NCBI RefSeq assembly: GCF_000384115.1
Contig: NZ_KB913029.1
Location: 3,509,057-3,573,056 of the forward strand
Source: Sporichthya polymorpha DSM 43042
GTDB lineage: Bacteria; Actinomycetota; Actinomycetes; Sporichthyales; Sporichthyaceae
DNA length: 64,000 bases
Direction of reading: 5' to 3'
Shown piece by piece: positions 57,709 through 64,000 of the stretch. The notes beneath the pieces were generated by a model that saw only the letters and a list, made by a program, of their open reading frames with translations, did not search any database and was not told the origin of the DNA. Numbering within the stretch: position 1 is the stretch's first letter; each line of letters opens with the position of its first letter. Both the position numbers and the translations under genes were made by a program.

Positions 57709-57735
57709 CGGACCCGGGGGATCCGGTTGCACAGT

Positions 57736-57751
57736 TCGAACGCGTGTTCGA
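57736..57751. promoter_or_regulatory. LexA (SOS) box upstream of imuA
   Basis: TCGAAC-GCGT-GTTCGA, a perfect match to the actinobacterial LexA consensus TCGAAC-N4-GTTCGA, ten bases before GTG 57762. DNA-damage induction of imuA is predicted. Confidence 0.9.
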
Positions 57752-57761
57752 CAATGGTGGG

Positions 57762-58574
57762 GTGAGTGCCACCGTCGCCGACCTGCGGGCCCTGCTCGAG
57801 CGGGCACAGCCCGGAGCGGTGCGCGTCGCCACGGAGACGCAGGCGACGAGTGGGGTGCTGCCGGTCGCGGCGGCGCTGCGGCCGCTGTTCCCGGGTGGCG
57901 GGCTGCGGCGGGGAACCGCCGTCGAGATCGGGGTCCGTGAGGACGCGGTCCCGGTCGGCCCGCGCGGTCGGCGGCCGTCGGGTTCGCCGTCGGGTTCGCT
58001 GTCGGGTTCGCCGTCGGGTTCGCCGTCGGGCGGGTACGACGAGCGGCCCGGGGCCGGCGGGTGCTCGCTGGTGCTGGCGCTGCTCGCGGAGGCCTCGGCC
58101 GCGGGCTCGTGGTGCGTGCTGGTCGGGGCACCCGGGCTCGGGCTCGCCGCGGCCGCCGAGGTGGGCATCGACCTGAGCCGGTTCGCGCTGGTCCCGGCGC
58201 CGGGGCAGAACTGGGCCCGCGCGGTCGGGGCGCTGCTGGACGGCTTCGACCTCGTCGTCGCCCGGCCGCCGGCGGACCTGGCCCCGGCCGAGGCGCGGGC
58301 GCTGACCGCCCGGGCCCGCCACCACGGGACCGTCCTGGTCTCGCTCGGTCCGTGGCCGGGTGCCCAGGTGCGGCTCACGCCCGTCCACTCGCGGTGGGAG
58401 GGCCTGGGGAACGGGCACGGCCGCCTGAGTGCGCGCCGGCTCCGGGTTTCCGCCACCGGTCGCGGCACCGCGGGCGGCCGGACGCGCAGTGCCGAGCTCT
58501 GGCTCCCGGCCGCCGACGGCACGCCCGCCGCTCTGGAGGCGGCGTTCGTCCCGCCGGTCGAGGCGGCCGGGTGA
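57762..58574 (+). CDS. imuA: ImuA-type SOS mutagenesis protein (RecA-like, actinobacterial)
   Basis: A 270-residue protein of the actinobacterial ImuA' group, which links the DnaE2/ImuB mutasome to recombinase activity. Visible: N-terminal VADLRALLERAQPGAVR, FPGGGLRRGTAVEIG, then a strand-rich RecA-like core (LVLALLAEASAAGSWCVLVGAPG, LVVARPPADL). A low-complexity PSGS repeat (57975-58031) replaces part of the Walker-like loop region, so ATPase activity is uncertain. GTG 57762 is chosen because GTG 57744 would fall inside the LexA box. Divergent or antisense neighbour is an FHA-like gene. Confidence 0.85.
   Translation: MSATVADLRALLERAQPGAVRVATETQATSGVLPVAAALRPLFPGGGLRRGTAVEIGVREDAVPVGPRGRRPSGSPSGSLSGSPSGSPSGGYDERPGAGGCSLVLALLAEASAAGSWCVLVGAPGLGLAAAAEVGIDLSRFALVPAPGQNWARAVGALLDGFDLVVARPPADLAPAEARALTARARHHGTVLVSLGPWPGAQVRLTPVHSRWEGLGNGHGRLSARRLRVSATGRGTAGGRTRSAELWLPAADGTPAALEAAFVPPVEAAG
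57975..58031 (+). repeat. 12-bp tandem repeat within imuA
   Basis: CCGTCGGGTTCG repeated about 4.5 times in frame, encoding (PSGS)n. It lies in the linker before the RecA-like core. Confidence 0.85.
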
Positions 58575-58602
58575 GGCGTGGCGGGGCGCGGTCGGGTGGG
58601 GT

Positions 58603-59298
58603 TCAGCTGCCGGGCGAGGGGGCTCCGGCCTCCGGGAACAGCTCCGGGCGCAGCCAGCCGGCCTGGACGAGCAGGTGGACGTACTCGGGGTCGGCGATCG
58701 TGACCTCCGGCGGCAGGCCGAGGGCGACGGCGCGGTTGCGGACCTCCTCGAGGCGGCGTAGAAGCGTCTCGGTGGTGACGCGCAGCTCCCGCGCGACCTG
58801 CTCGATGCCTGGAGGCCACTCCGTCAGCAGCGGGGGCCACTCGAGCAGGTCGGGGAACAGCAGGCGCAGGGCCTCCAGTTCGGCATGCGTCGGGTCGCCG
58901 GGGAGGCCGCCGGAGGAGTTCGAGCGGCCGGGGCGGGCCGAGGCGAGCCGGGTGTCGTCCTCGAGAAGCACCCAGTGCTCGCGCACGATCGAGCCGACGA
59001 CCCGCAGGGCGACCCGGGGCGCCGAGGTCGTCTCCTCGCGCTGGGCGTACCGCGGGGGCTGGCCCCAGGGGTGGATGAGGACCCCGTTGCGGTTGGTGGA
59101 CTCGAACGCCCAGCCGTCCTCGGTGCACGTCACCGTGAGCGCCAGTCGGGAGATCCGGGCGTCGTGGGTGTGCCCGATCGGGAGCTCCGCGGCGCGGCCG
59201 ACGGTCACCGAGTCGCCGGGATGCAGACCTCGGGTGCCGAGGGTGTGCAGTACGTCGTCGATGCGTTCGACCACGACCAGTCGACGATCGCCCAACAC
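58603..59298 (-). CDS. FHA-like domain protein between imuA and imuB
   Basis: A 231-residue protein. Residues 1-90 resemble an FHA phosphopeptide-binding fold (VTVGRAAELPIGHTHDARIS, then ESTNRNGVLIHPWGQ), though the canonical GR...S/T..H positions are only partly kept. The C-terminal half (about 135-231) is helical with IEQVARELRVTTETLLRRLEEVRNRA and no recognised domain; it resembles proteins that pair an FHA with a helix-turn-helix-like part. GTG 59298 with GGAGG. Antisense to and inserted between imuA and imuB; the LexA box at 59410 could serve it as well. Confidence 0.7.
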   Translation of the reverse strand: MLGDRRLVVVERIDDVLHTLGTRGLHPGDSVTVGRAAELPIGHTHDARISRLALTVTCTEDGWAFESTNRNGVLIHPWGQPPRYAQREETTSAPRVALRVVGSIVREHWVLLEDDTRLASARPGRSNSSGGLPGDPTHAELEALRLLFPDLLEWPPLLTEWPPGIEQVARELRVTTETLLRRLEEVRNRAVALGLPPEVTIADPEYVHLLVQAGWLRPELFPEAGAPSPGS

Positions 59299-59409
59299 GA
59301 CACCTCCGGTTGTGCCCGATTTGGGCCCAAGTGTCGGTCACCTTAGGGCGAGGTTCCCGCGTGTGGCCACTGTGCGGCGCGTCCCGACTCGCCGAACCGC
59401 TTGACTTGC

Positions 59410-59425
59410 TCGAACATGCGTTCGA
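59410..59425. promoter_or_regulatory. LexA (SOS) box upstream of imuB
   Basis: TCGAAC-ATGC-GTTCGA, again a perfect consensus match, ten bases before the imuB ATG and 111 bp before the divergent FHA-like gene. imuB and dnaE2 are thereby placed directly in the SOS regulon. Confidence 0.92.
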
Positions 59426-59435
59426 ACATCGAGGT

Positions 59436-61028
59436 ATGGGACGTGCGGCGCGGACGATCGCGATCTGGTCGCCGGACTGGCCGGTGGTGACCGCCGCCGC
59501 GGCCGCGGGGCTGGACCCGGCCGCCCCCGCCGCGGTGCTCGCGTCCGGGCGCGTCCTCGCCTGCACGGCCTCGGCCCGGGAGGCCGGGGTGCGGCGCGGG
59601 TTGCGGCGGCGCGAGGCCCAGTACCGCTGCCCGAACCTGGCGATTCTCCCCCGCGACCTCGCCGAGGAGTCCCGCGCGTTCGAGCCGATCGTCGTCGCCG
59701 TCGAGTCGCTGGCGCCGGGGGTCGAGATCGTCCGGCCGGGGCTGTGCACGGTCTCCGCCCGGGGGCCCGCCCGGTACTTCGGGGGCGACGAGGCGGCCGC
59801 CGCGCGCCTGGCCGACGAGGCCTCCGCGGCCGGCCCGGGCGACCTGTGCCGGGCCGGGGTCGCCGAGGGCGCGTTCGCCGCCGCCCTGGCCGCGCGGGTG
59901 GGCCGGATCGTGCCGGCGGGGCAGACCCCGGAATTCCTCGCCCCCTACCCGGTCGACGTCCTCGACCGGCCCGACCTCGCCGATCTGCTCCGCCGGCTCG
60001 GCCTGCGGACCCTCGGGGACTTCGCCGGGCTGCCGCCGGCCGACGTCACGGCCCGGTTCGGGGCCGACGGCGGCTTCGCCCATCGGCTGGCCCGGGGCGA
60101 GGACCCCCTGCCGCCGGACGGGCGGACCCCACCGCCGGACCTCGTCGTCACCACCCACCTCGACCCGCCCGCCGAGCAGGTGGAGCGCGCCGCGTTCGCC
60201 GCCCGCCCGCTCGCCGACCAGTTGCACGCCCGGCTGACCGCGGTCGGCCTGGGTTGCACCCGGCTCGTGGTGGAGGCCGAGACCGAGACCGGCGAACGCT
60301 ACGAACGCATCTGGCGCTACGAGGGCGTGCTGGACGCCGCGGCGATCGCCGAGCGCGTCCGCTGGCAGCTCGACGGGTGGCTGACGGCCAGTCAGAGTCG
60401 TGCCGGTCAGGTCAAGCACCGGCCTCGCGGTGGGATCGCCGTCCTGCGCCTGGCGCCGGACGAGGTGATCCCGCACGGGGGTGACCAGCTCGGGTTCTGG
60501 ACGCACGGCGCCGACGCCGAGGCCGCCGAGCGCGCCGGCCGGGCGCTGGCCCGGGTGCAGGGGATGCTCGGCCAGCCGGCCGTCCTCACCGCGGTGCTGG
60601 CCGGCGGCCGGGGCCCGGGGGAGCGGATCCGTTACGTCGCGTGGGGCGACCCGCGCGGCCCGCTCGAGCGCGAGGCCGAGGAGACGGGCCCGTGGCCCGG
60701 GCGGATCCCCGCCCCCAGCCCGGCCCTGGTCCCGCCGTCCCCGGTCCCGGCCCAGCTCGTCGACGACGGTGGGCTCCCGGTCGCGATCAGCTCCCGCTAT
60801 GCGATCTCCGCCCCGCCCGCAAAGCTCCGCGTGGGCGAGGAGTCCCCGCGGCCCGTGCTGTCCTGGGCCGGTCCCTGGCCCGCCGAGGAGCGCTGGTGGG
60901 ACCCGGCCGCCCGGGCCGACGGGACCGCTGGGGTGAAGGTCCGCGTCCAGGTCGCCACCGCCGACGGCACCGGCTGGCTGCTGATCAGCCAGGGCGGCCG
61001 CTGGTTCGTCGAGGCGGTCTATGACTGA
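59436..61028 (+). CDS. imuB: ImuB, Y-family polymerase-like mutasome protein
   Basis: A 530-residue DNA polymerase Y-family protein (TIAIWSPDWPVVTAAAAAGL, ACTASAREAGVRRGLRRREAQ, PYPVDVLDRPDLADLLRRLG). In characterised homologues ImuB lacks catalytic carboxylates and instead bridges DnaE2, the beta clamp and ImuA; I see no canonical SID(E) motif here, in line with that. ATG 59436 is the start that follows the LexA box. The dnaE2 ATG comes 17 bp after its stop, so the two are cotranscribed. Confidence 0.9.
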   Translation: MGRAARTIAIWSPDWPVVTAAAAAGLDPAAPAAVLASGRVLACTASAREAGVRRGLRRREAQYRCPNLAILPRDLAEESRAFEPIVVAVESLAPGVEIVRPGLCTVSARGPARYFGGDEAAAARLADEASAAGPGDLCRAGVAEGAFAAALAARVGRIVPAGQTPEFLAPYPVDVLDRPDLADLLRRLGLRTLGDFAGLPPADVTARFGADGGFAHRLARGEDPLPPDGRTPPPDLVVTTHLDPPAEQVERAAFAARPLADQLHARLTAVGLGCTRLVVEAETETGERYERIWRYEGVLDAAAIAERVRWQLDGWLTASQSRAGQVKHRPRGGIAVLRLAPDEVIPHGGDQLGFWTHGADAEAAERAGRALARVQGMLGQPAVLTAVLAGGRGPGERIRYVAWGDPRGPLEREAEETGPWPGRIPAPSPALVPPSPVPAQLVDDGGLPVAISSRYAISAPPAKLRVGEESPRPVLSWAGPWPAEERWWDPAARADGTAGVKVRVQVATADGTGWLLISQGGRWFVEAVYD

Positions 61029-61045: not shown

Positions 61046-64000
61046 ATGGGGTGGGAGAACCCGCCGATGCCGTGGCGGGAGCTGGAGAAGCGGCTGTCGG
61101 GGAAGTTCCCGCCGACTGGCCAGAACCGGGCCCCTGAGGACCAGGCTGAGAACCGGGCACCCAACGGGCAGAAGCTGGCGTTCGGGCCGGAGGTGGAGCG
61201 GCCGGGGAGTTACCGGCGGGCGCCGTACCGGCCGAAGGAGATCGAGCGCGCGACCGACGTCGTGCCCTACGCCGAGCTGCACGCGCACTCGAACTTCAGC
61301 TTCCTCGACGGGGCGAGCCACCCGGAGGAGATGGTCGAGGAGGCGGTGCGGCTCGGGTTGACCGGGCTCGCGATCACCGACCACGACGGGTTCTACGGCG
61401 TCGTCCGGTTCGCGGAGGCGGCCGAGAAGCACGGCCTGTCGACGATCTTCGGCTCGGAGCTCTCGCTCGGTCTGACGAAGGCTCAGAACGGCGTGCCGGA
61501 TCCGGAGGGGACGCACCTGCTCGTCCTCGCGCGGGATCCGGACGGGTACGCCCGCCTCTCGACCGTGATCAGCGAAGGTCACGCGCGGGGTGGGGAGAAG
61601 GGCCGACCGATCCATCACCTCGAGGAGGTGGCCGCGGCGGCCGACGGGCACTGGCTGATCCTCACCGGGTGCCGGAAGGGCGCGGTGCCGGCCGCGTTGA
61701 CCAGGCCCGGGCCGCACGGCGGCGAGGAGGCGGCGGCGCGTGAGCTCGACCGCCTGGTCGCGCTGTTCGGCCGGGACCACGTCGCCGTCGAGCTGACCGC
61801 CCACGGCTACCCGGACGACGACGCGCGGCTCGATGCGCTCGCCGGCCTGGCTCGCCGCTTCCGGCTCCCGGCCGTCGCGACGGGCAACGCCCACTACGCG
61901 ACGCCCGAGCGGCGCCGGCTCGCGACCGCCCTCGCGGCGGTGCGGGCGCGGCGCAGTCTCGACGAGCTGGCCGGCTGGCTGCCCGCGGCCGGGACGGCGC
62001 ACCTGCACTCCGGGGCGGAGATGGCGGCGCGGTTCGCGCGGTACCCCGGCGCGGTCGCGAGCGCCCACGCCCTCGGGCAGGAGTGCGCTTTCAACCTCTC
62101 GCTGATCCGTCCCCGGCTGCCGGACTTCCCGGTCCCGGCCGGGCACACCGCGATGAGCTGGTTGCGCGAGCTCACCTACCGCGGGGCGCGGGAGCGCTAC
62201 GGCCCGCGGGAGGCGGAGACCCAGCCGGGCGCCTGGGCGCAGATCGACCACGAGCTCGCGATGATCGAGCGGCTGGACTTCCCGGGCTACTTCCTCATCG
62301 TCCACGAGATCGTCGACTTCGCGCGCAGCCAGAACATCCTCTGCCAGGGCCGCGGCTCGGCCGCGAACTCCGCGGTCTGTTACGCGCTCGGCATCACCGC
62401 CGTCGACGCCGTCTACTACCAACTGCTCTTCGAACGCTTCCTCTCGCCGGAACGCGGCGAACCGCCGGACATCGACATCGACATCGAGTCCGGCCGCCGG
62501 GAGGAGGTCATCCAGCACGTGTACGAGCGCTACGGACGCCGGCACGCGGCGCAGGTCGCGAACGTCATCTCCTACCGGCCGCGGTCGGCGGTGCGCGACA
62601 TGGCCAAGGCGCTCGGGTACTCGACCGGTGCCCAGGACGCCTTCGCGAAGGAGGTGCACCGTTACAGCGGTGACGTTTCCGACACCGACGACATGCCCGC
62701 GGACGTGCTCGAACTGGCCGGGCAGGTGGCGCGCTTCCCGCGGCACCTGGGCATCCACTCCGGGGGGATGGTGATCTGCGACCGTCCGGTGGTGGAGGTC
62801 GTCCCGGTCGAGTGGGCGCGGATGGAGAACCGCACCGTCATCCAGTGGGACAAGGACGACTGCGCCTCGCCGCTGGTCAACCTCGTCAAGTTCGACCTGC
62901 TCGGGCTCGGGATGCTCTCGGCGCTGCACGGCTGCTTCGACCTGATCCGCGACGTCCACGGCACGGAGTGGACGCTGCAGTCGATGCCGAAGGAGGACCC
63001 CGAGGTCTACGAGATGCTCTGCCGGGCGGACTCGGTCGGGGTGTTCCAGGTCGAGTCCCGGGCGCAGATGGCGACGCTGCCGCGGCTCAAGCCACGCTGC
63101 TTCTACGACCTCGTGCTGGAGATCGCGCTGATCCGGCCCGGGCCGATCCAGGGCGGCTCGGTGCACCCGTTCATCCGTCGCCGCGCGGGCAAGGAGCCGA
63201 TCACCTACCCGCACCCGTCGCTGGAGAACTGCCTGAAACGCACGCTCGGCGTCCCGATGTTCCAGGAACAGCTCATGCAGATGGTGGTCGATGCTGCCGG
63301 CTGCACGCCCGAGCAGGCCGACCGGGTCCGGCGCGCGGTCGGGTCGAAGCGGTCGCCGGAGCGGGTCGCCGAACTGCGCGCCGAGCTCTACGAGGGCATG
63401 CGCCGCACCCACGGCATCACCGGCGAGACGGCGGACACGATCTTCAACCTGATCGCGGCGTTCGCGAACTTCGGCTTCGCCGAGAGCCACTCGATCAGCT
63501 TCGCGCTGCTGGTCTACGCCAGCTCGTGGCAGAAGTTGCGCTACCCGGCCGCGTTCTGCGCCGCGCTGCTCAACGCCCAGCCGATGGGGTTCTACTCACC
63601 GCAGTCGCTGGTCGCCGACGCCCGTCGGCACGGGGTCGAGGTGCGGCGGCCGGACGTCAACCTCTCCGCCGCCGGGGCGAGTCTGGAGCCGGCCGGGCCG
63701 GGGAACCGTGAGCCGGAGACCTCCTGGGGGAGGGCCGCGATCCGGCTCGGGCTCTCCGGGGTCCGCTCGATCGGGGACGATCTCGCCGAGCGGATCGAGT
63801 CCGAACGCCGCGCGAACGGCCCGTACGTCGACCTCGCCGACTTCGCGCGGCGGACGTCGGCCGGCGCCGCGCACATCGAGGCGCTCTCCACCGCGGGGGC
63901 GTTCGACAGTCTCGGCCTCGCCCGGCGCGAGGCGCTGTGGGCGGCGGGGGCCGTCGCGCAGACGGGGCCGGATCAGATCGCCGGCACGGTGGTCGGGCAC
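61046..64000 (+). CDS. dnaE2: Error-prone DNA polymerase DnaE2 (3' truncated by window)
   Basis: Alpha-type replicative-fold polymerase that carries out translesion synthesis with ImuA-ImuB in the SOS response. The 985 visible residues start MGWENPPMPWRELEKRL, as in mycobacterial DnaE2, followed by a PHP domain (YAELHAHSNFSFLDGAS), the polymerase core with the catalytic DIDIDIES region (PPDIDIDIESGRREEVI) and HSGGMVICDRP, the finger motif SVGVFQVESRAQMATLPRL, the GSKRS loop and the helix-hairpin-helix start (AQPMGFYSPQSLVADARRHG). The C-terminal OB domain and end lie beyond base 64000. No separate LexA box; expressed from imuB. Confidence 0.95.
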   Translation, partial: MGWENPPMPWRELEKRLSGKFPPTGQNRAPEDQAENRAPNGQKLAFGPEVERPGSYRRAPYRPKEIERATDVVPYAELHAHSNFSFLDGASHPEEMVEEAVRLGLTGLAITDHDGFYGVVRFAEAAEKHGLSTIFGSELSLGLTKAQNGVPDPEGTHLLVLARDPDGYARLSTVISEGHARGGEKGRPIHHLEEVAAAADGHWLILTGCRKGAVPAALTRPGPHGGEEAAARELDRLVALFGRDHVAVELTAHGYPDDDARLDALAGLARRFRLPAVATGNAHYATPERRRLATALAAVRARRSLDELAGWLPAAGTAHLHSGAEMAARFARYPGAVASAHALGQECAFNLSLIRPRLPDFPVPAGHTAMSWLRELTYRGARERYGPREAETQPGAWAQIDHELAMIERLDFPGYFLIVHEIVDFARSQNILCQGRGSAANSAVCYALGITAVDAVYYQLLFERFLSPERGEPPDIDIDIESGRREEVIQHVYERYGRRHAAQVANVISYRPRSAVRDMAKALGYSTGAQDAFAKEVHRYSGDVSDTDDMPADVLELAGQVARFPRHLGIHSGGMVICDRPVVEVVPVEWARMENRTVIQWDKDDCASPLVNLVKFDLLGLGMLSALHGCFDLIRDVHGTEWTLQSMPKEDPEVYEMLCRADSVGVFQVESRAQMATLPRLKPRCFYDLVLEIALIRPGPIQGGSVHPFIRRRAGKEPITYPHPSLENCLKRTLGVPMFQEQLMQMVVDAAGCTPEQADRVRRAVGSKRSPERVAELRAELYEGMRRTHGITGETADTIFNLIAAFANFGFAESHSISFALLVYASSWQKLRYPAAFCAALLNAQPMGFYSPQSLVADARRHGVEVRRPDVNLSAAGASLEPAGPGNREPETSWGRAAIRLGLSGVRSIGDDLAERIESERRANGPYVDLADFARRTSAGAAHIEALSTAGAFDSLGLARREALWAAGAVAQTGPDQIAGTVVGH

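Follow-up and report, generated by a model that had tools for sequence, protein, structure and literature searches.

A probable division of the imuA'-imuB-dnaE2 cassette of Sporichthya polymorpha into two predicted SOS units, with a probably unrelated FHA-like gene lodged between them

The mycobacterial ImuA'-ImuB-DnaE2 (ImuC) mutasome comprises the same three proteins as the locus described here (with an ImuA protein of the ImuA' type), is likewise associated with LexA boxes and SOS control, and is encoded by a cassette that is also 'split' (PMC10421592, PMC3901139). The point of division differs between the two systems: in mycobacteria imuA' and imuB form one operon and dnaE2 is found elsewhere, whereas in Sporichthya polymorpha imuA' stands alone and imuB and dnaE2 are found together (PMC10421592, PMC3901139). 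Split mutasomes are already described; according to a published review, which cites a survey of split imuA/imuB/imuC cassettes by Erill and others, the genes imuA, imuB and imuC occur in practically all possible configurations, among them those in which each gene possesses its own SOS box (PMC3901139). Because these configurations have been reviewed, the split reported here does not represent a new kind of system. Compared with the split cassettes of that survey, the present locus differs in that its two units are adjacent and have a single unrelated gene between them.

The explanation that best accounts for this arrangement, to which a probability of roughly three in four is assigned, is that two SOS units have an unrelated phospho-signalling FHA regulator lodged between them. 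According to this explanation, a LexA-controlled ImuA'-ImuB-DnaE2 cassette would be split into two SOS transcription units, one consisting of imuA' alone and the other of imuB-dnaE2; LexA would block both, by virtue of a LexA box that covers the promoter spacer of each, and RecA-triggered cleavage of LexA would presumably relieve the block on both units. The intervening FHA gene would be transcribed leftwards from a promoter of its own, outside the control of the LexA box of imuB, and most likely represents a regulator linked to a kinase, with relatives of the Frankia type, that happens to be situated between the two units. Its FHA domain would probably bind a phosphorylated protein and its HTH-like tail may bind DNA, while both its status as a bystander and its link to a kinase are presumptive. 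Separate SOS promoters for imuA' and for imuB-dnaE2 would permit the amounts of their products to be set independently, and an independently set amount of ImuA' would be useful for asking what role that protein plays.

The window (the whole stretch of DNA that was analysed, 64,000 nucleotides in length) is a piece of the complete, single-contig genome of S. polymorpha (5.5 Mb). Profile matches indicate that the mutasome protein set is complete at the locus, consisting of ImuA' (57762-58574, forward strand; 270 amino acids from a GTG start; NCBIfam NF058630, E 1.5e-49), ImuB (59436-61028, forward strand; 530 amino acids from an ATG start; Pfam IMS domain, E 2e-12) and DnaE2 (61046-64000, forward strand, running past the end of the window; PRK05672, E 0, 1309 bits). 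The imuB and dnaE2 genes are separated by 17 bp, and ImuB displays 74-98% identity among relatives in the family. Between imuA' and imuB, in antisense orientation and divergent from imuB, is found a gene for an FHA-HTH-like protein (58603-59298, reverse strand; 231 amino acids from a GTG start), which is present in a single copy in the genome and is preceded by an SD-like GGAGG sequence that imuA and imuB both lack. This SD-like sequence, together with a dN/dS of 0.21 against the sister species G003, indicates that the antisense reading frame is a real gene, and the latter value further indicates that its product is under constraint. Within imuA itself, a 12-bp tandem repeat, GCCGTCGGGTTC, was observed at 57974-58030 (4.8 copies), where it encodes a Gly-Ser-Pro-Ser stretch; this repeat is missing from the sister species.

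Perfect matches to the LexA motif CGAACNNNNGTTCG occur at exactly two sites in the whole window (in which even the looser core GAACN4GTTC would be expected by chance 0.68 times): the box of imuA, CGAACGCGTGTTCG, at 57737-57750, and the box of imuB, CGAACATGCGTTCG, at 59411-59424, neither of which is assigned to a strand. A previous sequence-only reading of this DNA had placed imuA and imuB each behind a perfect LexA box; both sites were found, and each ends 11 bases before a start codon (GTG 57762 for imuA and ATG 59436 for imuB). Genome-wide (5.5 Mb), the motif yields 37 perfect sites, against 2 for a reversed control pattern, and the genes directly 3' of it include lexA, recA, ruvC, radA, dinB, an AlkB-like dioxygenase and several DUF222 proteins (with radA and the AlkB-like gene identified from sequence and Pfam domains). 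The distance from box to start is at most about 20 nt at imuA, imuB, ruvC, radA, dinB and several DUF222 genes, and is 63 nt at lexA. Control of imuA' and imuB-dnaE2 by LexA, through their respective SOS boxes, is predicted from these features. As a separate observation, at least eight DUF222-type paralogs (L033, L037, L038, L045, L070, L072, L078 and L083; four of the eight confirmed by Pfam and the others assigned by sequence similarity) each begin within a perfect LexA box or immediately after one, and no other group observed in the predicted SOS regulon is as large.

A sigma-70 consensus scan of the region found no site above threshold, either for the mutasome genes or for the FHA gene, and for that reason the SOS promoters were called by counting hexamer matches at a fixed geometry, a measure in which a score of 8 was reached by 4 of 3000 random window positions. 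The predicted imuA promoter (57727-57755, forward strand) consists of a -35 element TTGCAC at 57727-57732 and a -10 element GACAAT at 57750-57755, with the LexA box contained in the 17-nt spacer; in their best register (TGCACA/GACAAT, at a spacing of 16) the hexamers match at 8 of 12 positions. The predicted imuB promoter (59402-59429, forward strand; -35 TTGACT at 59402-59407, -10 GAACAT at 59424-59429) also harbors its LexA box inside the spacer and, in its best register, scores 8 of 12 in the direction facing imuB. The layout of both promoters is identical in the congener G003, and the boxes of recA, lexA, ruvC and dinB do not display this -35/-10 geometry, which is therefore a feature of the mutasome promoters rather than a general SOS rule in this organism. 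Because the predicted transcription starts fall on the start codons, the imuA and imuB mRNAs are probably leaderless, with starts expected at GTG 57762 and ATG 59436.

The sequence-only reading had further noted a LexA box upstream of the FHA gene and had proposed that this gene might be part of the SOS response. A box is indeed present in the shared intergenic region, but it is the same box as that of imuB, counted twice. That shared position would allow the FHA gene to be a true SOS gene, with LexA at 59411-59424 repressing both divergent promoters; such an arrangement is nevertheless very unlikely, given that the LexA box nearest to the FHA start codon is 113 bases away (the boxes of imuA, imuB, ruvC, radA, dinB and several DUF222 genes being within about 20 nt of a start, even though that of lexA is farther), that the FHA-facing hexamers (the same geometry, reversed at the box of imuB) match at 3 of 12 positions and so correspond to background, and that relatives of the FHA gene are found without LexA boxes. 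Promoter geometry assigns the box to imuB, and the proposed membership of the FHA gene in the SOS response was not sustained, although a LexA dimer at 113 bp could still weakly affect that gene. Since the consensus scan returned no promoter for the FHA gene, its separate promoter is a supposition; a weak candidate (TGGCCA, 18 nt, TAAGGT), noted by eye in the stretch that separates the gene from the box and kept in G003, failed that scan. A 10-bp perfect palindrome, TTGGGCCCAA, is also found in this interval at 59321-59330 (no strand assigned), 22 nt upstream of the FHA start and about 80 bp from the imuB box; it is the sole copy in the window, is conserved in G003 and, speculatively, might serve as a self-regulatory site of the FHA gene.

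The generality of the split was assessed in 50 further loci, selected within the class so as to cover about 40 genera. As a rule, imuA and imuB are nearly contiguous in these genomes, with most gaps falling within about 40 bp, as the sequence-only reading had assumed; a perfect core is found upstream of imuA in 34 of the loci, and in 48 of the 50 the two genes have no perfect LexA box between them. The division of imuA and imuB-dnaE2 into separate SOS units is therefore unusual in the class, again in agreement with that reading. In one of the exceptions, G022 (L118 1684-4265), a perfect box accompanied by a TTGACA -35 element precedes imuB, and a 2.6-kb insert containing three genes (NAD-binding, ECF sigma-like and VOC-like, as named by eye from sequence) is situated between imuA and imuB; this is an independent split in an unrelated actinomycete. 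In the other exception, G248, the box overlaps the end of imuA and no insert precedes imuB. A few additional loci (G137, G034) display imuA-imuB gaps of 270-385 bp with no perfect box. In all, LexA boxes immediately preceding imuB were seen in three lineages of actinomycetes, namely the family of the window and two that are unrelated to it.

The history of the split was judged from four informative genomes of the family, all of which carry two boxes; a third congener, G004, was left out because a contig end interrupts its imuB and its assembly lacks the part that would hold imuA and the FHA gene. (In that assembly, at L150 2040-3459, the glyoxalase-like gene that is upstream of imuA in the window is followed, as judged by eye, by an AbiEi-like gene.) The two genomes of the sister genus, G001 and G002, possess a perfect box at imuA and another at imuB, these genes being separated by 154 and 116 bp, and the FHA gene was not found in either of them. 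The split and both boxes thus exist without the FHA gene, and the split therefore does not require it. The sister species G003 keeps the gene order of the window, with 95% identity in the FHA protein, but is so close to the window species (dS 0.13) that this conservation carries little weight. An alternative history, in which insertion of the FHA gene between imuA and imuB severed imuB from the imuA promoter, followed by loss of the inserted gene from the sister genus, is possible but doubtful, and the same tentative standing applies to its corollary that the imuB box was selected after the insertion, a sequence of events compatible with the explanation based on two SOS units. The pairing of a 2.6-kb insert with a perfect box before imuB in the unrelated G022 is consistent with that order of events, as is the retention of an unusually long gap (116-154 bp) in the sister genus; against this, it costs one event more than a scenario in which the gene entered a locus that had been split beforehand, and in G248 imuB is preceded by a box although no insert is present.

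The suggestion that the antisense gene encodes an FHA-like protein held up when its predicted structure was compared with solved FHA domains, even though Pfam and NCBIfam scans of the protein returned no FHA match. An AlphaFold2 model built from a 9-sequence alignment displays a pLDDT of 82.9; residues 1-116 resemble FHA domains of known structure (best Foldseek hit at E 1.4e-5), and alignment to 3gqs by VIA-align yields a Z of 11.1 and an rmsd of 2.0 over 95 residues. The modelled protein does have the FHA beta-sandwich fold. None of 15 family members (14 relatives included) matched the Pfam FHA model at E 1, a search of PDB sequences with the family profile gave nothing significant, and the product is at best to be filed as a divergent member of the FHA fold. 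The canonical phosphothreonine-binding residues of FHA domains are a GR pair, a serine, an N-G pair and the histidine of an SxxH motif. In this family G34-R35, S50 and G72 are invariant, N71 is kept in most members, and the SxxH histidine is replaced by alanine (S50-R-L-A53). By its secondary structure and by weak profile matches, the C-terminal third tentatively resembles an HTH: the tail (approximately residues 138-212) contains helices at 165-171 and 176-192, and a few family members display weak profile matches to Sigma70_r4 or HTH_8 (E 0.02-0.05). When folded alone, the tail gave a low-confidence model (pLDDT 60) with no significant fold match.

EmbR of Mycobacterium tuberculosis, which is among the structural matches, similarly joins an FHA domain to a putative DNA-binding part. 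The two proteins differ in that here the FHA part is first and the HTH-like part last, in that no EmbR-type domains were found by Pfam, and in that the present protein is part of a separate family, which is small and has relatives in Frankiaceae. The same FHA fold is found in GarA/OdhI and FhaA of Actinobacteria (VIA-align Z 9.5-9.7), from which this protein is distinguished by the alanine noted above and by its extra C-terminal tail.

Clear relatives of the FHA gene were found only in Frankiaceae, at 36-45% identity, among 393 genomes of the class; a scan of genome contigs with the single protein returned nothing, and a scan with an alignment identified 8 Frankiaceae loci. Searching a 396-genome sample of the phylum with a profile recovered no family member except that of the window, from which the family is judged to be narrow, and a plasmid search for the protein found none. 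In 12 stretches of 14-20 kb surrounding the Frankiaceae relatives, neither imu genes nor the GAACN4GTTC core were found, and wherever the same Frankiaceae genome was surveyed, imuA was located away from the FHA relative. Ser/Thr kinases, some with WD40 repeats, adjoin the Frankiaceae copies in four genomes, and XRE-DUF5753/DUF397 pairs are often nearby; by reason of these neighbours, the surroundings suit a phospho-signalling regulator of a general type. Inspection by eye revealed no shared operator upstream of the relatives.

These distributions bear directly on the proposal that the FHA-HTH protein regulates the mutasome by binding the shared intergenic region (for example at TTGGGCCCAA) and, without involvement of LexA, tuning imuB-dnaE2 according to a signal from a Ser/Thr kinase. 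The divergent arrangement with imuB (common for local regulators), the retention of that arrangement and of the intergenic palindrome in G003, the combination of an FHA fold with an HTH-like tail, and the purifying selection acting on the gene would all fit such a role. It is nonetheless unlikely: these genes are regulated in the sister genus in the absence of an FHA gene, no imu gene is found near any Frankiaceae relative examined, the palindrome is beside the FHA start and distant from the imuB box, which fits self-regulation better, and the closeness of G003 leaves its conservation with little meaning. The related idea that a kinase-linked FHA-HTH regulator was recruited to the space between imuA and imuB, where it uses a phospho-signal to gate imuB-dnaE2 alongside LexA, is quite unlikely; if true, such gating would provide a second switch on induced mutagenesis, and any regulation of imuB by the FHA gene would cause phospho-signalling to act on that process. 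The sequence-only reading had raised the possibility of a phospho-signalling link to mutagenesis, a suggestion that gained no positive support and is disfavored by the split without an FHA gene in the sister genus and by the separation of the Frankiaceae relatives from the mutasome; the location of the gene proved variable at the level of the family, with the order kept only in the close sister species. The favored reading remains that of two SOS units with an unrelated FHA regulator between them. Among the Frankiaceae copies, those at L053, L054, L056 and L048 adjoin recQ (in three related genomes) or polA (in one), neighbours that constitute the sole hint of a link to DNA repair and that may reflect chance.
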